Of a DNA stretch of 21,232 nt, positions 209-12,870 are shown piece after piece; positions within the stretch are counted from its first letter, which is position 1; each line of letters starts with the position of its first letter. The notes beneath the pieces are model-generated. The model made no database searches and was not told the DNA's origin. It worked only from the letters and a program-made list of their open reading frames with translations. The position numbers and the translations under genes are program-made. Location of the stretch: IMG/VR virus record IMGVR_UViG_3300042542_003421, positions 1 to 21,232 of that record; one strand, given 5' to 3'. The stretch comes from a virus.

Positions 209-478
209 ATGCACACTCCTCCCCGCTTTGCTGTACTCGGGCGCCTGTTGGCCCATCACCGTTCGCACCGCTCGCAGGAGTCGGTGGCGGACATCCTCGG
301 CATCAGCCGTACCACCCTGTCGCACGCCGAGCGGGGGTACATCCTCCTGAGCGGCACGACGCTATCGAAGCTGCTCCACCTGTACGACACGGACGGAGTA
401 GCGCCGGCACCGTCTCGCGCCGACAAGGTGACGATCTACGATGCGATCGTGGATTGCGGGGGGCTCCATGCTCTTTGA
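209..478 (+). CDS. XRE-family helix-turn-helix regulator (Cro/CI-like)
   Basis: An 89-residue protein. Residues about 23-45 read as an XRE-type helix-turn-helix (QESVADILGISRTTLSHAER), with the typical QxxxAxxLGISRxTLSxxERG pattern, followed by a further helix TLSKLLHLYD. It should bind operator DNA as a dimer. It is the first gene of the rightward operon and lies back-to-back with erf, the usual place for a Cro- or CI-like switch protein. There is no room for a CI-type cleavable C-terminal domain, so a Cro-like role or a short repressor is more likely. There is no Shine-Dalgarno, and the ATG sits where the promoter at 174-202 would start transcription. Its 3' end overlaps the next gene by 11 bases. 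Confidence 0.72.
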   Translation: MHTPPRFAVLGRLLAHHRSHRSQESVADILGISRTTLSHAERGYILLSGTTLSKLLHLYDTDGVAPAPSRADKVTIYDAIVDCGGLHAL

Positions 479-767
479 CCTTCGCCCCCTGAACCTCCCT
501 CCCGAGACGGCCCCGTTCCGCTTCGTCCACGATACCTGCCGCCACCCCACCGCCAAAGACGGCGTGCTCAGCGCCTCGCTCAACTGCGACAGCATCGGCT
601 ACTGGCATTGGGGGGCCTCGCATCATGTCGCCTGGCCGCTCGTCGTTGATGACGTTGCGTGGCAGGAAGCCGAGGCGACCGGCATCGAGCCCGAGCACGC
701 CGATGCGCTCGCGGCGGCTGTCGCGTGGATGCGGGCTCGGCTGGCGATGGTGGGGGAGGTGCCATGA
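468..767 (+). CDS. Hypothetical early phage protein (99 aa)
   Basis: I do not recognise a family. The start at ATG 468 is preferred over GTG/ATG codons upstream because a G-run (GCGGGGGG) stands just before it and the overlap with the XRE gene is only 11 bases. The protein has a mixed N-terminal half with several His, Cys and Trp residues (HDTCRHP near residue 21, YWHWGASHH near residue 45) and an acidic then Ala-rich helical C-terminus. It ends in an ATGA overlap with the following gene, so the two are translationally coupled. By position it is a small accessory protein of the early operon, with no function assignable from sequence. Confidence 0.6.
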   Translation: MLFDLRPLNLPPETAPFRFVHDTCRHPTAKDGVLSASLNCDSIGYWHWGASHHVAWPLVVDDVAWQEAEATGIEPEHADALAAAVAWMRARLAMVGEVP

Positions 768-1216
768 CCCGCCGCATCGGCCCACGGCACGCTCAGCGCA
801 TGATCGAGGACTGCACGCCGGGGCCGTGGCGGGTGCAGGTAGCAGCGTGCGACCACGAGGACGCGGCGGAACACGCGGCCATCAAGGGCGGCGGGTTCCT
901 GGTGGTCACATGCGTAGGCGAGCAGGACGCCGAGATCATCGCCGCAGCGCCTGACCTCGCATACTCGCTCGTGATGGCAGAGGGCGAGGCGGACGAACTG
1001 CGGGCGGCGCTGATCGTAAGCGAGGAGCGGCGCAAGATCGCGACCAACGAGGCCCGACGACTGCGCGACCTGATCGCCCTGTATGGACCAGTCGCGGCGG
1101 GCGACGAGCGCGACACGCTGGCAGAACTGGTGCGGCAGCGTGACGAGGCGCGAGAGGATGCCGAGACATACGCGCGCAGCATGAGCAAGGTGTGGGAAGG
1201 GCTGGCGAAGCCATGA
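764..1216 (+). CDS. Hypothetical phage protein with TPGPW and DAExIAAAPDL motifs (150 aa)
   Basis: The start is ATG 764, overlapping the previous stop as ATGA and preceded by GGGGGAGGT. Near the N-terminus are CTPGPWRV and then QDAEIIAAAPDLAYSLV. The pair TPGPW ... DAxxIAAAPxL recurs in small early proteins of many phages that infect high-GC hosts; their function is unknown to me. The C-terminal half (about residues 75-150) is charged and strongly helical, with EADELRAALIVSEERRK and LAELVRQRDEAREDAE, and probably forms a coiled coil that mediates oligomerisation. It overlaps the next gene by four bases. Early non-structural role inferred from position. Confidence 0.65.
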   Translation: MTRRIGPRHAQRMIEDCTPGPWRVQVAACDHEDAAEHAAIKGGGFLVVTCVGEQDAEIIAAAPDLAYSLVMAEGEADELRAALIVSEERRKIATNEARRLRDLIALYGPVAAGDERDTLAELVRQRDEAREDAETYARSMSKVWEGLAKP

Positions 1217-1566
1217 CCCCCACCCCCGCTCAAATCGCCCTCGCCAAGCGCGTGCCGTACTCCGTGCGCGACATCGCCGAGGCCATCGCGGCGGCAGAGC
1301 TCCGCGGCCACACCCGCGCCGTGCAAGAGACGGCCATCGCCTCGATCCACAAGGGAGCAAGCATGAACTCCGCCCACCTCGCCCGCGAGCTCTCCGACTT
1401 CGCCAAGCACGCCGCCAGCGCCGCCAAGGGGATGCGCGCCCTTGGCGATGCCAACGGCGGCCACTACAACGACGGGCGCGAAGCTGCGTTCGCGTGGCTC
1501 GCGTACCTGCTCCTCAACCCGGAATCGCACCTCATGCAGAAGCTGCGGGAGGAGGTGAAGCCGTGA
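1213..1566 (+). CDS. Hypothetical early phage protein (117 aa), possible internal start
   Basis: ATG 1213 overlaps the preceding stop (ATGA), favouring it over the GTG at 1192. The N-terminal 50 residues are a helical Ala/Arg-rich segment (DIAEAIAAAELRGHTRAV). The C-terminal 67 residues contain HLARELSDFAKHAASAAKG and an aromatic stretch AFAWLAYLLL. An in-frame ATG at 1363 (residue 51) has its own good Shine-Dalgarno (AAGGGAG, five bases away), so a shorter 67-residue product could also be made. I do not recognise a family. The gene ends in an exceptionally strong Shine-Dalgarno, AGGAGGTGA at 1550-1558, that serves the next reading frame. Confidence 0.6.
   Translation: MTPTPAQIALAKRVPYSVRDIAEAIAAAELRGHTRAVQETAIASIHKGASMNSAHLARELSDFAKHAASAAKGMRALGDANGGHYNDGREAAFAWLAYLLLNPESHLMQKLREEVKP
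1550..1558 (+). promoter_or_regulatory. Near-perfect Shine-Dalgarno for the 17-codon ORF
   Basis: AGGAGGTGA is complementary to the 16S rRNA tail over nine bases. The AGGAGG core lies seven bases before GTG 1563, an ideal distance, while the rusA ATG is 57 bases away. It therefore serves the mini-ORF rather than rusA directly. Confidence 0.6.
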
Positions 1567-1616
1567 CCCGCCGCCCGAAGTCCTCGCACGCGAACCGGGG
1601 CAAGGTCGCCCGATGA
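1563..1616 (+). CDS. 17-codon basic mini-ORF linking to rusA
   Basis: GTG 1563 overlaps the previous stop (GTGA) and the frame ends in an ATGA shared with the rusA start. The predicted peptide is MTRRPKSSHANRGKVAR, strongly basic with seven Arg/Lys and no acidic residues. Its Shine-Dalgarno is the best in the window. It may be a functional micro-peptide, or a translated leader that delivers ribosomes to rusA by termination-reinitiation. It is far shorter than usual gene-calling limits. Expression is inferred from the ribosome binding site and exact overlaps. Confidence 0.42.
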   Translation: MTRRPKSSHANRGKVAR

Positions 1617-2068
1617 CGTTCACCGCTACGATCCCCGGCGACCCCCGCGGCAAGGGCAGCGTGCGCGTCTACAACGGGCGAGCCATGAAGGACGCAAAGA
1701 CGGCCGAATACATGACGCGGGCTATTCTTGCGTTCCAGGGCGCCGCCGATGGATGGACCCGGCTCGATGGCCCGTGGTGGGTCGAGCTGCGGTGCTTCGT
1801 AGATCGGCCTGCGAGGCTCATCCCGAAGGCCAAGGCGCGCACGGCACAACCCCCGAGCGAGGCATTCGTGGCGCCGTGCAAGCCCGACGTGGACAACGTG
1901 GCAAAGGCCGTGCTCGACGCGCTGGTACAAGCCGGCATCGTTGCCGATGACAAAGCGTGCGTGAGCCTGCGGGTCCGGAAGTTCTACGCCGCGGTAGGCG
2001 ACTCGCCAGAGGTGCGCGTGGCGCTCGGCAGCGTGGGCGAGTGGTCGCTATCCGCGGAGGACCGATGA
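1613..2068 (+). CDS. rusA: RusA-family Holliday junction resolvase
   Basis: A 151-residue protein, slightly longer than E. coli RusA (120 residues). The N-terminus ATIPGDPRGKGSVRVYNGRAM fits the opening strand of the family. The catalytic signature is at residues 90-98: KPDVDNVAKAV, giving D92, D94 and K98, followed by LDALVQAGIVADDKACV with D112/D113. These match the three metal-binding aspartates and the lysine required by RusA. The enzyme cuts four-way DNA junctions symmetrically, resolving recombination intermediates or debranching DNA before packaging. It sits downstream of early regulators and opposite the ERF gene, so both ends of recombination (annealing and resolution) are encoded. 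The ATG overlaps the mini-ORF stop (ATGA) and the gene ends in another ATGA overlap. Confidence 0.9.
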   Translation: MTFTATIPGDPRGKGSVRVYNGRAMKDAKTAEYMTRAILAFQGAADGWTRLDGPWWVELRCFVDRPARLIPKAKARTAQPPSEAFVAPCKPDVDNVAKAVLDALVQAGIVADDKACVSLRVRKFYAAVGDSPEVRVALGSVGEWSLSAEDR

Positions 2069-2223
2069 CCACGCCACGGCCTCGACCCGACCCGATAAAG
2101 ACCGCCCGGCTCATGGAGGCTCTCCAGGTGCTCAGCGATGAGGCCAAGCGACTGCCGCAGGATGAGCGCCTACAAGTCATCCTCGCGAGCAACCGCATCC
2201 GGCAGCAGTTCGGATTGCTGTGA
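2065..2223 (+). CDS. Small hypothetical protein (52 aa)
   Basis: ATG 2065 follows GCGGAGGACCG, a good Shine-Dalgarno, and overlaps the rusA stop as ATGA. The product is highly charged and mostly helical, for example TARLMEALQVLSDEAKRL and LQVILASNRIRQQFG, with a Pro/Arg-rich first ten residues. No known domain is recognised. It ends in a GTGA overlap with the next frame, continuing the coupled early operon. Confidence 0.6.
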   Translation: MTTPRPRPDPIKTARLMEALQVLSDEAKRLPQDERLQVILASNRIRQQFGLL

Positions 2224-2438
2224 ACGCCGACCGCTACCCCGAGGTGCCCAGTTGGCGCGGCTTCGGGTGGATGCTGGGGCCGTGGCGAGTGCTCGGCATG
2301 GACCTCGACGGGCGAGTGCGCGTGGAGTGGTTCGAGCAGAAGGGGCGCCCCCGCGAATGGGTGAGCCTCGACCACCCTGATCTCGTGCAGCTCAAGCGCA
2401 GCGTGGCTAAGTGGCCGCCAACCCCGCGCCCGACTTGA
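2220..2438 (+). CDS. Small hypothetical protein (72 aa)
   Basis: GTG 2220 overlaps the previous stop (GTGA); no independent Shine-Dalgarno is visible, so translation probably depends on coupling. The product is rich in Trp (WRGFGWMLGPWRV, VEWFEQ, REWVSL), with an alternating beta-like pattern suggesting a small beta-sheet domain. It is the last gene of the first early block. Its stop lies inside TTGACA (2435-2440), and a new promoter region begins straight after. Family unknown. Confidence 0.58.
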   Translation: MNADRYPEVPSWRGFGWMLGPWRVLGMDLDGRVRVEWFEQKGRPREWVSLDHPDLVQLKRSVAKWPPTPRPT

Positions 2439-2450
2439 CAGGAAAAACGA

Positions 2451-2482
2451 GGTGTCCGGTGGTGTCCGTCTAAGGGTGTCCG
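2451..2482 (+). repeat. Three direct GGTGTCCG repeats upstream of a -10 box
   Basis: GGTGTCCG occurs at 2451-2458, 2461-2468 and 2475-2482. Start-to-start distances are 10 and 14 bases. The last copy ends three bases before a TATACT box. They occupy the place where RNA polymerase would contact a -35 box, suggesting binding sites for an activator or repressor. Confidence 0.5.
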
Positions 2483-2485
2483 CGC

Positions 2486-2491
2486 TATACT
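2486..2491 (+). promoter_or_regulatory. Promoter -10 element for the nuclease/primase-helicase genes
   Basis: TATACT (five of six consensus bases) lies about 50 bases before ATG 2542. No recognisable -35 hexamer stands 16-18 bases upstream; that position is covered by the GGTGTCCG repeats. A perfect TTGACA exists at 2435-2440 but is 45 bases from the -10, too far to pair with it. The promoter may be factor-dependent. Confidence 0.45.
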
Positions 2492-2541
2492 CTCGGTGAG
2501 ATCGTACCCGCGTTCTCCCGACAACGTGACCGGAGCCAGCC

Positions 2542-3060
2542 ATGGCGTTCACCTCAGAAGATGACTTTCTACGTCGGGTAGTAGGCCCCGACCTTTCCGC
2601 ACGCGGCTTCGATGTCCGCTACGAGATGACGTTTCTACTGCCCACCCTCGACGGTGGATGTCAGCAGCGGCGGGCTGATCTCTACATCACAGCGCCGCCG
2701 AGTTGGGAGCACTCAGGCCGCTGGCCAGCCATCGCCGTAGAGGGCAAGCGCCGCGATGGCGGCAGCATGGGCGATGAGATCGACGGGCTGCTACAGACCC
2801 GCTCCTGTCTCTACGGCTACCGCTTTCGGATCGGGGCCACGGACTATCCCCGCCCGTCGTTGGCGCTCTACGTCGATCAGCAGACGTGGGCGGCGCGAGG
2901 AGACGAGGACACGCCGCGAGAGTCCATGCTGGCCGACCGGCTCCTGTGGCGCGAGGGCGCCGCCATCCTCTTCGGCCCGACCAGGTGGCGTGGGCCTCGG
3001 TTCACATTCGCGTGTGTCGGCTCCCCTCAACGCTCCTACCTGCTGCCGGAGTTCGCATGA
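2542..3060 (+). CDS. Putative PD-(D/E)XK-fold nuclease (172 aa)
   Basis: ATG 2542 follows CCGGAGCC, a usable Shine-Dalgarno, and the frame ends in ATGA shared with the primase-helicase. Residues 44-50 (RADLYIT) and 64-70 (IAVEGKR) form two hydrophobic strands carrying D46 and E67-x-K69. This is the D ... ExK arrangement of the PD-(D/E)XK superfamily, with Q85 in a following helix and E28 in the first half as further candidates. Members include resolvases, exonucleases and restriction-like nucleases. A replication-linked nuclease would fit the coupling to the primase-helicase. The overall sequence is not close to any family I can name, so the assignment is by core motif only; a non-catalytic DNA-binding protein is the alternative. 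Confidence 0.5.
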   Translation: MAFTSEDDFLRRVVGPDLSARGFDVRYEMTFLLPTLDGGCQQRRADLYITAPPSWEHSGRWPAIAVEGKRRDGGSMGDEIDGLLQTRSCLYGYRFRIGATDYPRPSLALYVDQQTWAARGDEDTPRESMLADRLLWREGAAILFGPTRWRGPRFTFACVGSPQRSYLLPEFA

Positions 3061-5735
3061 CCAGCTTTCTTGATCTGCTCTTCACGGATGCCCTCGGCGA
3101 CCCCGTTTCCGGGTGGATCGAAACCCGGTACATCGAGGACCGCCGGAGCATGGTCCCCCCGATCCGAGAGTGGTGGGAGTCGGCCGAAGAACTCGCGGGC
3201 GCCCTGCCGTCGATCGCCGAGCGGGCGCAGAAGGACGGGCGCGCCGTGTTCTTCGGTGTGCTGCCTCGCGCCACCCGCGGAGACGGCACCGCCTCGAGCG
3301 CAGCGCCGGGTATGGTCGCGTGGTGTGACGTGGACTTCAAGGACGTAAAGGAGCCCGAGGCGCGCAGGCGGATCGCCGCGTTTCCCCTGGTGCCGTCGGT
3401 CGTCGTTCACTCCGGGCGTGGGCTGCACCTTTACTGGCTCATGAAGGAGCCGACCGACCCCGCTACCCTCCGTGAGATCAGCAAGCGCGCCGCCCATGCC
3501 CTCGGCGGTGACCGCTGCTTCGACGCCGCGCGAATCCTTCGGATGCCGGGCACACGGAACGTCAAGGCGTGTTGGGTGGATGACGCCTACCGTTTCGAGC
3601 CGTCCGCGCCCGTCGTGACCATCGAGTACGCCGACGCCGCGATGCGCTACAACCCTGACGACTTCGATGTGCTGCCCGAGGCGCCAGCGGACACGGAGCG
3701 GCGGGATACCGTGCTCCCGACCAACGCGGCGATCCCTGACGAGGTGTCGGAACGGGTGGCGAACCTGATCAAGAACCGCCCACGGCTTGCGCTCTACTGG
3801 CGCAGCGAGGGCAAGGAGTCGGGCGACACCAGCGGCAGCGGCTACGACATGAGCTTTGCCTGTTCGCTCATCCTGCACGGCGTGACCGACCCCGCCGAGC
3901 TGGCCGCCGCGGTAGCGGCAAGGCCGCGGGTAGCAGGAGGCAAGGCCCGCAGCAAGCGGGAGGTGTGGCGCACCGTCGATCACGCCCTCGATGTCATCCG
4001 ACCCAGTACGCATGATCAGGAGCGAACGGCGCCGGATGGTGGGCAACCTTACGCCGAGGAGGCCGCACCGCACGATGACGGGGGCGCGCTGGAATCGCTC
4101 GCCTCGTTCATCGATCGGATCAAGGCGGCCGAGAAGGACCACGTTGCGCTGAAGAAGATCGAGCTCGAACTGATGCACCCGTCGCTCATCGCCGACCTCG
4201 CGGCGGGCGACGAGGACCAGGTATCGCTGGCTCTCGCGGGGCTTTCGCTGCGCGGCTTCACCAAGCATGTGGAACGCATCGCCAAGGCCGTGAACAAGGC
4301 GCGGGCGCTCTTGGAGGGCGCACGGCAGCACGTCGCGGACAAGGCGCGGCAAGAGGCGCAGAAGAAGCGCAACGAGCGCATGATCGAAGAAGAGTGGCCG
4401 ATCACAAGGAGCGGGCCGCACCCCGGAGTCATGGCCGCCCTCTCCGTCCGCAAGGGGGCGCCGGCCATCTGCCACGCGAACCTCATCCTCATTCTGAAGA
4501 TGGACCCTCGATGGTCAGGACGCTTTAGGATCAACCGCATGGGCGACATGCTGGAGTTCGACGGTGCCCTCGTGGACTCCGAAGCGCGGCTCGTCAGCGA
4601 CATTACCGTTTGGCTTTCGCGCCACTACGACATCCACTTCCGGATCGAGGATGTCAAGGCCGCCGTCTACGCAACCGCCCTCTCCAACGAGTACCACCCG
4701 GTGCGGGAGTTCCTGTGTCAGCTCCCCCGCTGGGATGGCGTGGACCGGGTGGAGGTGCTGCTTACCGAGGTGCTGCACGTCAACGACGGCGCCACCAGTC
4801 AGGAGATGGACCTGTATCGTAAGTTCATGCGACGGTTCCTCATCTCGGCCGTGGCGCGAGCCATGAACCCCGGATGCAAGGTAGACACGGCGTTGATCTT
4901 CACGGGCGAGCAGGGCGCCAAGAAGAGCTCGTTCTTTCAAGCGCTCGCCTCCCCGGCATGGTTCGGCGACAGCCCGATCCCCATCGGGGACAAGAACGCG
5001 CCGATCCAGCTCCGCTCCACCTGGCTCTACGAGTGCGCCGAGATGGAGAGCCTGAACAAGCGAACGGCCGACGAGGTGAAGCAGTTTCTCTCGACCTCGC
5101 GCGACCTGTTCCGGAACATCTACGAGCGCAACGCGCGCCACTGGGGCCGACACTCGGTCATCTGCGGCAGCACGAACAAGCCCGAGTTCCTTTCCGACCC
5201 GTCAGGCTCGCGCCGCTTCTGGCCGATCCCCGTTCCTGACCACGCCGTGATCGACATCGAGCGCCTGCTGACCATTCGGGAGTCGGTGTGGGCGCAGGCC
5301 CTCGCCCTCTACCGTCAGGCGGTGGAACAGAAGAAGGTGGGCACGCCCGATGAAAGCTGCCGGTGGTGGTTCGAGCGCGACGAGGACCGCGACCGCGCCG
5401 AGCAGGCCCAACGATTCGAGGTGACCGACGTGTGGGATGGGCTCGTTATGGACTTCGTGGTTCGGATGATGGGCAAGTTCACCATCGCCGACATCCTGCA
5501 CGAAGGACTCTCCATGCAGAAGGAACGCATGGACCAGGCCGCCAAGAATCGCGTGGGCGCCATTCTGCGCCGGCACGGCTGGAAGTCAAAGCGGGCGAGG
5601 AGCGAGCACGACAAGTGCAAGTTCGTGGACGTGTGGGTGCGAGAGGCGACCGACGATGCGCCGAGCTCGACCCCCATCGCCAGCGTTCCGACGTGGCGAG
5701 ACGTTCCGATCAACGATGACGGCGTGCCATTCTAA
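3057..5735 (+). CDS. Primase-helicase: AEP-type primase fused to VapE-type SF3 helicase
   Basis: An 892-residue replication protein. ATG 3057 overlaps the preceding stop and follows CGGAG; in-frame starts upstream lie inside the previous gene and are rejected. N-terminal primase domain: catalytic DVD at residues 91-93 (VAWCDVDFKD), then HSGRGLHLYW at 118-127 with H124, and RILRMPGTRN at 159-168, the three motifs of archaeo-eukaryotic primases of the RepB-like type. A charged, helical linker spans about residues 350-460. The C-terminal half is a virulence-associated-E (VapE) ATPase: YHPVREFLCQLPRWDG, Walker A GEQGAKKS at 617-624, an acidic Walker B-like YECAEMES, and ICGSTN. The last about 60 residues look like a winged-helix DNA-binding tail (LRRHGW around 837-842, FVDVW). 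It should unwind and prime DNA at the phage origin. Confidence 0.88.
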   Translation: MTSFLDLLFTDALGDPVSGWIETRYIEDRRSMVPPIREWWESAEELAGALPSIAERAQKDGRAVFFGVLPRATRGDGTASSAAPGMVAWCDVDFKDVKEPEARRRIAAFPLVPSVVVHSGRGLHLYWLMKEPTDPATLREISKRAAHALGGDRCFDAARILRMPGTRNVKACWVDDAYRFEPSAPVVTIEYADAAMRYNPDDFDVLPEAPADTERRDTVLPTNAAIPDEVSERVANLIKNRPRLALYWRSEGKESGDTSGSGYDMSFACSLILHGVTDPAELAAAVAARPRVAGGKARSKREVWRTVDHALDVIRPSTHDQERTAPDGGQPYAEEAAPHDDGGALESLASFIDRIKAAEKDHVALKKIELELMHPSLIADLAAGDEDQVSLALAGLSLRGFTKHVERIAKAVNKARALLEGARQHVADKARQEAQKKRNERMIEEEWPITRSGPHPGVMAALSVRKGAPAICHANLILILKMDPRWSGRFRINRMGDMLEFDGALVDSEARLVSDITVWLSRHYDIHFRIEDVKAAVYATALSNEYHPVREFLCQLPRWDGVDRVEVLLTEVLHVNDGATSQEMDLYRKFMRRFLISAVARAMNPGCKVDTALIFTGEQGAKKSSFFQALASPAWFGDSPIPIGDKNAPIQLRSTWLYECAEMESLNKRTADEVKQFLSTSRDLFRNIYERNARHWGRHSVICGSTNKPEFLSDPSGSRRFWPIPVPDHAVIDIERLLTIRESVWAQALALYRQAVEQKKVGTPDESCRWWFERDEDRDRAEQAQRFEVTDVWDGLVMDFVVRMMGKFTIADILHEGLSMQKERMDQAAKNRVGAILRRHGWKSKRARSEHDKCKFVDVWVREATDDAPSSTPIASVPTWRDVPINDDGVPF

Positions 5736-6055
5736 GCGCGGCGCCAGCGGTCTACGAAGCCGCCATCCACGCGCGCACGAACAGGGCGCCAGCCACACCG
5801 CCTAAGCGCCCGGCCAAGGTTGTAGGCGTGCTGGAACTTCGTGGTCGTCAATCCCAGCGCACACGCAATCTCAGACAACGACGCGCCGTCCTTGATGTCG
5901 GCCAGAGCGCGCACAAGGTCGCTATCGTCATGAACGCGAGAGCTCTTGACGCGGCGCGTAGAGGCCGAAGCATATACCGCTGCGGACTTCTCCATTGCCT
6001 TGATGAAGGCTGCGTTGGCTGCGGTGTCCGGAAGCATGAGAATGAAGGTGAGCAT
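5732..6055 (-). CDS. Small helix-turn-helix protein resembling the primase-helicase C-terminus
   Basis: A 107-residue protein on the opposite strand; its stop codon overlaps that of the primase-helicase. I chose ATG 6055 (MLTFILML) with GGGGAA upstream. A further in-frame start at 6091 would overlap the promoter described at 6073-6101. Residues 56-83 form a helix-turn-helix (DGASLSEIACALGL then TTKFQHAYNLGRALRR). This is followed by CGWRPVRARVDGGFVDRW, which mirrors the end of the primase-helicase (HGWKSKRARSEHDKCKFVDVW). The shared N-x-x-G-x-x-LRRxGW ... RAR ... FVDxW pattern indicates a winged-helix DNA-binding fold of common origin. It probably binds the neighbouring TGTGCGCC repeats as an origin or transcription regulator. 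Its codon use is less GC-biased than that of its neighbours. Confidence 0.66.
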   Translation of the reverse strand: MLTFILMLPDTAANAAFIKAMEKSAAVYASASTRRVKSSRVHDDSDLVRALADIKDGASLSEIACALGLTTTKFQHAYNLGRALRRCGWRPVRARVDGGFVDRWRRA

Positions 6056-6072
6056 GAGTGTTCCCCGTGTCG

Positions 6073-6101
6073 ATAGTACCACGGCGCACACCTTGACGCA
6101 A
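6073..6101 (-). promoter_or_regulatory. Extended -10 promoter for the small helix-turn-helix gene
   Basis: On the minus strand TTGCGT (6101-6096), a 17-base spacer and TACTAT (6078-6073) preceded by TGG give a -35 plus extended -10 arrangement. It lies 18 bases upstream of ATG 6055. The spacer contains one copy of the TGTGCGCCG repeat (6082-6090), so a protein bound there would occlude RNA polymerase. Confidence 0.45.
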
Positions 6102-6247
6102 CGCCTGCGTGATGGTGAACGGCCATCGTCAGGGTTGTGCGCCCGAGGCTATTGGTGGCTAATCGCGGGACTGCGCGCCTATCGACTGGACAAGTGCGAA
6201 AACGAGTCGCGTTGTGCGCCCGGTGCGCCCCTACTTTGATGTACGGC

Positions 6248-6256
6248 TGTGGAAAA
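6248..6256 (-). promoter_or_regulatory. DnaA-box-like site
   Basis: TGTGGAAAA on the plus strand reads TTTTCCACA on the minus strand, one mismatch from the DnaA box TTATCCACA. It sits at the edge of the AT-richer island. One nine-base match is weak on its own; its position is what makes it notable. Confidence 0.35.
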
Positions 6257-6272
6257 CAGGTGTCGATCAATC

Positions 6273-6288
6273 AAAGAGCCATCTCTTT
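6273..6288. repeat. Perfect hairpin AAAGAG-CCAT-CTCTTT
   Basis: Six-base arms with a four-base loop lie in the AT-richer island and are followed by a pyrimidine run (CTCTTCTACTACC). The stem is AT-rich and too weak for a typical terminator. It could extrude in single-stranded origin DNA or be a protein site. Confidence 0.4.
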
Positions 6289-6314
6289 CTCTTCTACTAC
6301 CCTCTCATCATGGA

Positions 6315-6329
6315 ACATATACATATGTA
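6315..6329. repeat. AT-rich palindromes in the origin-like region
   Basis: ACATAT-AC-ATATGT (6315-6328) overlaps a perfect ten-base palindrome TACATATGTA (6320-6329). It lies just before the tandem CGCACAAG repeats, in the least GC-rich part of the window, and could be an unwinding element or a dimer-binding site. Confidence 0.35.
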
Positions 6330-6560
6330 CTACGCACAAGCGCACAAGGTAGAAACACCACGGTAGAAGCTGGCGTATCGATGTGCGCCGATGGGTTTAG
6401 GCTCGGGCGCACAAGGGGGGTTCACGGGCGCACAACGAAATAAGCGGCGTTCAATGGGGCCGGATGTGCGCCCGTGGTCGGAAAGCCCGATGGGATGCTG
6501 CTTGTCGCCACCGAGAGTGCGCGAGGTAGACAGGTGGCGGGGTGGGGAGTAGGCTAAGGC

Positions 6561-6713
6561 ATGTTCGGCACTGTCCAAACGCGCGACCTTCCCGCCCTCC
6601 TGGTCATCCTTGCGTGCGCGGTAGTGGAACGGGTGGTCGAGTCGAGGTGGTGCCGGCTCGCGGTGATGGCTGTGGGCACGGCGCTCGCGTCGTGGCTGGC
6701 AGTGGGAGGGTAG
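6561..6713 (+). CDS. Small membrane protein (50 aa)
   Basis: ATG 6561 is preceded by a purine-rich stretch (GTGGGGAGTAGGCTAAGG) that can act as a ribosome binding site. The product has two hydrophobic stretches, LPALLVILACAVV (about residues 11-23) and LAVMAVGTALASWLAV (about 33-48), separated by a charged turn ERVVESRWCR. It could be a two-helix hairpin inner-membrane protein. It ends just before the TerS ATG, and GGGAGGG near its end is the TerS Shine-Dalgarno. Small two-helix proteins at this place in phages can be holins or superinfection factors, but neither is shown here and the function is unknown. Confidence 0.5.
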   Translation: MFGTVQTRDLPALLVILACAVVERVVESRWCRLAVMAVGTALASWLAVGG

Positions 6714-6716
6714 GCG

Positions 6717-7238
6717 ATGGGCGTGCTGGTGCATGACCCGGCGTTGATCGCGGTTCGCGTGGCAGCGATGCTCTGCACGGGCGCGACGAACGTGGAGATC
6801 GCCGAGGAGATCGGCGCACACCGCAACACCGTCACGCGGCTGATTCAGTCGCCCGAGGTGCTGGAGGAGGTAGAGCGCATCCAGAACGACGCGCGGACCA
6901 GCGCCAAGCGCGTAGGGGCTGGGCTGCTCAACTCGGCGGTGGGAGTGTGGCGCGATGCCTTGAAGGCTACCGCCGGCCCCGCTGGTGAGTGCCCCCATTG
7001 TAGCGGGGCGCTCGACAGCCCGGCCGACCACGCCATCCGGCTCCGCGCCGCCGACTCGGTGGCCGATCGCTTCGGCCTGCCGAAGACGGAGGTGCAGGAG
7101 CTCACCGGGGCGCTCACGCTCGGGGAGAAGTCCGACGAGGAGCTGGCGCGCGTCACGCTGGAGGAGGCGATCGCCATCCTTGACGAGCAGGGCCACCACG
7201 AAGCAGCGGCGGCCGTTCGTGCCACTCTCGCGATCTGA
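6717..7238 (+). CDS. terS: Terminase small subunit
   Basis: A 173-residue protein starting at ATG 6717 after GGGAGGGTAGGCG. Residues about 24-45 form a helix-turn-helix (TNVEIAEEIGAHRNTVTRLI), followed by SPEVLEEVERIQNDARTSAKR, a long helix typical of terminase small subunits that build a ring and recognise packaging sites. A CPHC pair (C92, C95) lies in the middle and could be part of a metal site, although no partner pair is obvious. The acidic C-terminus (LGEKSDEELARVTLEEAIAIL) would contact the large subunit. The gene lies directly before terL with a 20-base overlap, the standard order. One GGCGCACA sequence (6813-6820), like the upstream repeats, lies inside it. Confidence 0.78.
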   Translation: MGVLVHDPALIAVRVAAMLCTGATNVEIAEEIGAHRNTVTRLIQSPEVLEEVERIQNDARTSAKRVGAGLLNSAVGVWRDALKATAGPAGECPHCSGALDSPADHAIRLRAADSVADRFGLPKTEVQELTGALTLGEKSDEELARVTLEEAIAILDEQGHHEAAAAVRATLAI

Positions 7239-11406: not shown

Positions 11407-12870
11407 ATGGAAATCGAGATCAAGAGCAACGCCGACCTGATCGGCCAGTTCCGCGCCATCCACAAGGACATCGGCGACAACAAGGCCGCGCAGGACCGCG
11501 CCGCAGCCGACTTCGCCGACAAGCTCCGCGCCATCGAGGAGCGCAACGCCCTCGCCGGAAAGTCGATCGCCACGCCCGTCGGTGGTGAGGCCGCCCTGGT
11601 GTCCCGCTTCATGCGCGCCGATGGCAGCGTGAACCTTTCCCGCTCGGTGGAGCGCGTCGAGTTCGCCGGCCAGATGGTCGACGTGCAGCGCGACGGCCTG
11701 TTCACCGACGCCCCCGCTACCGAGTGGGATCGCGACCTGAAGGCCATCGGCCTCGCCGCCACCCTCTACCGCTCCGTGACCGGGCGCAACCCCGTCAGCC
11801 TGAAGGGCCGCCTTCTCGCCCACGCGGCGAAGGCCCCGACCGCGGGCGGGTTCCGCACCGCGCTGGAGAAGACCATCGCGAAGAGCATCAGCGACACCGC
11901 CGGATCGGGCGCCGAGTGGATTCCCGACACGCCGATCAGCGCGCTCTACGAGGAGTTCTTCACCCCCAACGGCATCGCCGCCCTCTTCGACGTGGTGAAC
12001 ATCAACGGCCCGATCATCGTGCCGAAGATCACCGACACCGGCCGCCCCTACCTGAAGGGCAAGGTTTCGACCAACGACCCCGACCAGTACACCGCGTCCG
12101 ACTTCACCTCCGATTCGCAGACCATCGAGGTGGCCGGCTTCGCGGCTCGCTTCCTGATCGACGATGCCGCGACCGAGGATGCGATCTTCGCGCTCGCTCC
12201 CGAGATCGCCAAGCGGGCCGCCCGCGCGATCGGCGACGGCTACGAGGACTGCATGATGAACGGCGACACGACCGCGACCCACCAGGACGCGATCGCCTCG
12301 TGGAACCTCCGCAGCCGTTGGGGCGCCTCCGGCCTCGGTGGCAGCGCCGACCACCGCCGCGGCTTCCTCGGGTTCCGCGCCCTCGCCGCTGACCGCAGCC
12401 TGACCGTGGACCTCACCGCCGCCCAGACCGCCGCGGGCGTGATGGGTTCGGTCGTGGGCGCCATGGGCGAGCTCGCCGCCAGCGACATCGCGCTCATCAC
12501 CTCCCCCGAGGTGCTGTACAAGAAGCTCATGGTTGATTCCAACGTCCTCACCGTGGATAAGATGGGCAACCGGGCCACGATCATGACCGGCCAGCTCGCG
12601 AGCATCGGCGGACACCCGCTGTTCTCCTCGCGCTGGATGGGCGCGGACCTCGCGAGCACCGGCCTCTTCACCAACTCGGGCGCCCTCTCGGGCCTCGTGG
12701 CGGTGAGCCGCAGCGAGTGGAAGCACTACGCCAGCCGCTCGGTCATGGTCGAGCAGGACAAGGACATCACCCGCGGCGCCTTCAACGTCGTGGCCACGCA
12801 GCGCAAGAGCCTGCGGACCCTGAGCGGGTCGTCCAGCAAGGTCGTGTTCTACGCCTACAACATGCTCTAA
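11407..12870 (+). CDS. Major capsid protein, HK97 fold
   Basis: A 487-residue protein from ATG 11407, preceded by CGGAGCCTGAACC. Residues 1-50 are a charged coiled-coil (DLIGQFRAIHKDIGDNKAAQ ... RAIEERN), the delta/scaffold domain of HK97-like capsids. The body carries features of the fold: SDTAGSGAEWIPDTPISAL, FFTPNGIAALFDVVNINGPI for the N-arm and E-loop region, then KRAARAIGDGYEDCMMNGD, and the C-terminal HPLFSSRWMGADLASTGLFT with VVATQRKSLRTL. Those sequences are typical of phage_capsid proteins. The prohead protease next to it should cleave after the delta domain. At 487 residues it is longer than HK97 gp5 (385), so extra surface loops are likely. Probably the most abundant virion protein. 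Confidence 0.88.
   Translation: MEIEIKSNADLIGQFRAIHKDIGDNKAAQDRAAADFADKLRAIEERNALAGKSIATPVGGEAALVSRFMRADGSVNLSRSVERVEFAGQMVDVQRDGLFTDAPATEWDRDLKAIGLAATLYRSVTGRNPVSLKGRLLAHAAKAPTAGGFRTALEKTIAKSISDTAGSGAEWIPDTPISALYEEFFTPNGIAALFDVVNINGPIIVPKITDTGRPYLKGKVSTNDPDQYTASDFTSDSQTIEVAGFAARFLIDDAATEDAIFALAPEIAKRAARAIGDGYEDCMMNGDTTATHQDAIASWNLRSRWGASGLGGSADHRRGFLGFRALAADRSLTVDLTAAQTAAGVMGSVVGAMGELAASDIALITSPEVLYKKLMVDSNVLTVDKMGNRATIMTGQLASIGGHPLFSSRWMGADLASTGLFTNSGALSGLVAVSRSEWKHYASRSVMVEQDKDITRGAFNVVATQRKSLRTLSGSSSKVVFYAYNML

Follow-up and report, generated by a model that had tools for sequence, protein, structure and literature searches.

A two-orientation iteron array downstream of a VapE-type primase-helicase gene as the probable replication origin of a tailed phage

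The virus analyzed here carries, between its primase-helicase gene and its packaging genes, a gap of about 500 nt (roughly 6059 to 6560) with short repeats in both orientations, which raises the question of whether replication starts there and, if so, which protein reads the repeats. The window, i.e. the whole stretch of DNA that was analyzed, is an entire IMG/VR virus record of 21,232 nt, and its genes include those for a RusA resolvase, a VapE-type primase-helicase, TerS, TerL, the portal, and head and tail proteins. From the helicase end at 5735 to TerS at 6717 it holds an opposite-strand ORF that overlaps the helicase stop by 4 nt, the gap, and a small ORF. We consider it very probable that the array is the replication origin of the phage, and that the copies of TTGTGCGCCCG are the binding sites of the C-terminal winged helix of the adjacent primase-helicase. 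This reading brings together the computed array and its AT-rich core, the position of such arrays across the helicase family, their co-transfer with the replication module, the covariation of the repeats with the helicase C-terminus, and a winged-helix model. The features involved are listed below.

3057-5735, plus strand: VapE-type primase-helicase, proposed initiator (PF05272, 1e-63; PHROG DNA helicase/primase families; PDB 7pds by sequence and fold)
5412-5627, plus strand: C-terminal winged-helix domain, proposed iteron reader (model H-E-H-H-E-E, pLDDT above 90; iteron similarity tracks this segment)
5732-6058, minus strand: small ORF of 108 aa, HTH-like by eye only
6082-6474, no strand: candidate replication origin formed by the iteron array (TGTGCGCC matched exactly seven times, TTGTGCGCCCG four times, both orientations)
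6083-6090, minus strand: iteron copy TGTGCGCC, exact match
6135-6145, plus strand: iteron TTGTGCGCCCG, exact 11-mer
6212-6222, plus strand: iteron TTGTGCGCCCG, exact 11-mer
6231-6340, no strand: AT-rich island within the array and candidate site of melting, with palindrome TACATATGTA at 6320-6329
6382-6389, plus strand: iteron copy TGTGCGCC, exact match
6404-6414, minus strand: iteron TTGTGCGCCCG, exact 11-mer
6425-6435, minus strand: iteron TTGTGCGCCCG, exact 11-mer
6464-6474, plus strand: iteron ATGTGCGCCCG, one mismatch to TTGTGCGCCCG
6561-6713, plus strand: small ORF with a hydrophobic, membrane-protein-like product, the first gene to the right of the cassette junction and common to the near-twin contig L006

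The short unit TGTGCGCC has eight exact matches in the 21,232 nt, where 2.2 are expected, and seven of them fall within 6083-6472 (6083-, 6136+, 6213+, 6382+, 6406-, 6427- and 6465+, the sign denoting the strand). Counting the degenerate copies at 6172, 6222 and 6338 as well, the figure of about ten copies given by an earlier, sequence-only reading of this DNA is a fair one. The same reading had reported four identical 11-base copies in both orientations within some 400 bases, and TTGTGCGCCCG indeed occurs exactly four times, at 6135+, 6212+, 6404- and 6425-; the scan of both strands that it had proposed found zero further copies in the record, so that the 11-mer is confined to 6135-6435, as is characteristic of the short origin-specific sites of SaPIs and PICIs. 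The array is the densest repeat cluster in the window: when the whole window was simulated 60 times with a first-order Markov model, no 450-nt cluster held more than five copies of any 8-mer (seven observed) or more than two of any 11-mer (four observed).

No other 100 bp of the window are as rich in A+T as positions 6231-6330 inside the array (59% versus 33% overall), and at the 60-nt scale just 0.02% of windows are equally AT-rich. The AT-rich island noticed earlier is therefore a real feature; the ten-base palindrome is present as well. The left copies (6083-6222) and the right copies (6382-6474) flank the island, which is the SaPI/PICI layout. The DnaA-box-like site that had also been pointed out exists, since TTTTCCACA at 6248-6256 on the minus strand is one mismatch away from TTATCCACA, but a role for DnaA finds no support, given that such sites are not enriched in the 0-500 nt downstream of the helicases of relatives (0.09 vs 0.15 per kb). 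A further one-mismatch site is present at 12552. A DnaA-dependent origin, resting on one degenerate site, was accordingly rejected. GC skew on the 21-kb fragment gave no decisive origin signal.

The position of the array was compared across the helicase family. Relatives were collected from viral contigs, bacterial genomes and phage records and reduced to 64 loci below 70% identity, window included; each locus of about 9 kb was searched for the 9-mer cluster of highest density, wherever it lay. Clusters with four or more copies were present in 41 of the 64 loci. In 34 of these 41 the densest one lay between -20 and +1000 nt relative to the helicase stop, where 5.1 would be expected (binomial 1.5e-24), and both orientations are represented in 30 of the 34. 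Related primase-helicases have thus mostly retained a two-orientation array beside the gene. Of the seven exceptions, five (L054, L232, L233, L238 and L286) have a cluster that lies within the 3' end of the helicase gene or straddles it. When one mismatch is allowed, seven or more copies fall within 450 nt in 59% of the helicase 3' regions, versus 0% and 2% in two control regions of equal size taken from those loci; by this measure a third of the relatives lack a strong array, 21 of the 64 having fewer than five copies near the helicase. The AT-richest 60 nt are within the top 5% of the respective locus in 28 of 44 arrays. In L054, L232, L233 and L238 the array is inside the helicase 3' coding tail, about 100-800 nt before the stop, where an origin would be translated.

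Comparison of the per-locus consensus units revealed a weak consensus, ..tGgGACA, to which the repeat unit of the window fits poorly, and hence the latter is not claimed as a member of it. A relative with the window's own unit was found neither among the sampled relatives nor in a pattern scan of viral contigs, and the phage collection contains no DNA-level relatives of the array region. The scan for paired GGGCGCACAA returned 46 matches, mostly in one orientation, several of which on inspection were in-frame coding repeats; none of the contigs concerned matched the three query helicases detectably. Two approaches were set aside: EM motif discovery, applied to the raw downstream regions, ended up in alternating sequence of low complexity, and the eyeballed pattern GGTNGNACA, 5-fold enriched and better than 297 permuted patterns, had been picked from the same data and is not evidence. 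Two loci deserve mention in their own right. L029, a contig with a related TerL, carries a dense array of CATGCGCCC at 1418-1658 (11 copies, both orientations), and L319 has four copies of GGCGCACA, a unit that resembles the window's, at 2736-3000, upstream of an ORF that is integrase-like by eye.

The best candidate for the protein that reads the repeats is the primase-helicase itself. Its listed ORF starts at GTG 2886; ATG 3057, which overlaps the preceding stop as ATGA, is probably the true start and the longer reading likely an artefact, so the searches, which used GTG 2886, were run with a probably wrong N-terminus. The same ATGA overlap, between the ORF at 2542-3060 and the helicase gene, suggests translational coupling. 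Folding the C-terminal domain from its sequence alone gave a poor result (pLDDT 60), which was discarded in favor of an alignment-based AF2 model of residues 520-949. This model has a mean pLDDT of 91, and at its end is a winged helix of the order helix-strand-helix-helix-strand-strand. The best fold match of this model is 7pds, the staphylococcal PriRep1 with dsDNA (E 2.6e-23), also the top match by sequence; the two proteins share a VapE-type ATPase and a fold over about 450 alignment columns that include the C-terminal part, whereas identity in the structural alignment is about 18% and the host and the iterons are others. The SaPI5 primase-helicase (PDB 7ola) is a weaker fold match than PriRep1. 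In terms of fold and domains (VapE, the modelled winged helix, the 7pds match) the protein is therefore a helicase with a C-terminal DNA-binding domain, as an initiator of this kind would be, and self-loading is predicted.

In a sample of 67 loci, the similarity between iterons was compared with the identity between proteins. Iteron similarity follows the identity of the C-terminal ~70 residues when core identity and GC are held constant (partial rho 0.22, reached in 0 of 300 permutations, a count that is not an exact probability because the loci are related by descent), and it does not follow core identity once the C-terminus is held constant (0.01). On pairs with core identity below 45% the C-terminal value is 0.165 (0 of 300). 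All remaining 70-residue slices give lower values, of which the highest, 0.18, belongs to the slice just before the C-terminal domain. These values point to the C-terminal domain as the likely iteron reader.

The same results bear on the possibility that the array is an operator, with repeats that are sites for the product of the ORF at 5732-6058, or for another regulator, and control divergent transcription. The copy at 6083-6090 is just upstream of the start of that ORF, as an operator could be; however, the repeats are spread over 390 nt with an AT-rich core in their midst, repeat similarity goes with the C-terminus of the helicase, and in most relatives the array starts no more than 30 nt from the helicase stop, which leaves no space for an intervening ORF. 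Family and relative searches with the 108-aa product found none. We regard an operator array as unlikely.

A partition or copy-control site of a phage-plasmid, with iterons that serve segregation or incompatibility instead of initiation, is very unlikely. Iteron arrays can play such roles in plasmids, but an AT-rich core is a hallmark of initiation sites, and no ParA/ParB-type gene was recognized among the window ORFs scanned. Partition or copy control could be a secondary role of the array.

The comparison that separates the array from the packaging genes comes from L006, a contig from another metagenome that is a near-twin of the window. Both are 99% identical from 6549 rightward (TerS, TerL, capsid) and 94% identical at 1362-1579, while window positions 1580-6548 have no homology to L006, in which the counterpart is 228-5352. 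Array, primase-helicase and resolvase gene all belong to the exchanged block, which on the right ends somewhere past the final repeat (6474) and ahead of the small ORF at 6561. In L006 the replacement module encodes a D5-type primase-helicase with no detectable similarity to that of the window, and its gap, which lacks the window array, has a different repeat set: CGGACA occurs five times in a mirrored pattern, at three places to the left of an AT-rich stretch and as TGTCCG at two places to the right, a pattern matched by 1 of 2000 shuffles. Two contigs with proteins related to the D5-type protein of L006 have repeats as well, GTGTCCG at 7265-7342 in L128 (66% identity) and 13 copies of TGGGACA in the gap of L129 (52% identity). 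Since the block was swapped and the right-hand packaging genes were kept, the array travels with the replication genes, and the repeats change with the initiator while TerS is constant. As an observation in itself, the pair represents a clean replacement of a whole replication cassette, Holliday-junction resolvase gene included, between phages that are otherwise 94-99% identical.

A packaging site (pac/cos) bound by TerS had been named, along with a control array, as the main alternative and would suit an array about 240 nt upstream of terS, but it is rejected as extremely unlikely, because L006 retains TerL and a 99% identical TerS without the window array, and the arrays of relatives adjoin the helicase whatever gene follows, those next in the Marinobacter phage PS3 and in LPPA36 not being annotated as terminase.

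The earlier proposal that the adjacent primase-helicase uses this origin is thus supported by the confinement of the array, the position of the arrays of relatives, the L006 swap and the C-terminal covariation; the poor fit to the consensus, the small ORF between helicase and array, and the relatives with few copies weigh against the origin reading. As no relative with the window's unit was found and the unit fits the consensus poorly, the cognate pairing of this iteron with its own helicase is proposed by analogy, from the family-wide rule and the L006 exchange. We infer iteron binding, melting of the island and initiation at the array, in the following sequence: the C-terminal winged helix of the VapE-type (PriRep1-like) primase-helicase would bind the TTGTGCGCCCG copies in both orientations; once bound on either side of 6231-6340, the protein would form two helicase rings, in line with the proposal for SaPI Rep; the rings would melt the AT-rich island; and synthesis would start from primers made by the protein's own N-terminal primase part.

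In a wider context, the evidence leans toward the SaPI/PICI-type origin extending beyond satellites and being a general, swappable origin of VapE-type tailed phages and prophages, in which helicase and array pass between phages as one cassette, with a lineage-specific iteron that a fast-diverging C-terminal winged helix reads under a learnable protein-DNA code. For uncultured phages this would provide an easy rule by which to locate origins, namely 3' of the VapE-type primase-helicase, and it suggests a single type of origin common to satellites and full phages. The dozens of initiator-iteron pairs are material for learning a recognition code, and the pair formed by L006 and the window is a natural case of cassette exchange with unchanged packaging genes.

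Several known systems resemble the one described here. In phage P4, the α protein combines primase, helicase and C-terminal winged-helix iteron binding, as proposed for the window protein; in contrast, the P4 origin is split between ori and crr, both with iterons, whereas that of the window seems to be contained in one gap. The Streptococcus thermophilus phage Sfi21 likewise has a noncoding origin with repeats near its primase gene. The closest likeness is to SaPIs and PICIs (S. aureus SaPIs; EcCICFT073 in E. coli). SaPI origins are directly 3' of rep, and Rep reads the iterons via its C-terminal domain (PMC7581432); PICI origins always consist of two iteron sets flanking an AT-rich region, an organization stated to be common to no other known replicon (PMC6092414). 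Judged from its sequence, the window array has this known architecture, with iteron sets around an AT-rich core 346-739 nt past the stop of the primase-helicase, but with another repeat unit, a small ORF in between, and, as carrier, not a satellite but a tailed phage that itself encodes terminase, portal and tail proteins. For Cch2 of SCCmec, the isolated C-terminal domain binds direct repeats of the putative origin downstream of the operon (PMC7581432); this D5-type system, with three 5-nt iterons, is nearer to the module of L006 than to that of the window. Part of this picture may have been published already; the kind of origin is familiar from satellites, whereas its proposed broad use in tailed phages, the cassette exchange and the winged-helix covariation go beyond PMC7581432 and PMC6092414.
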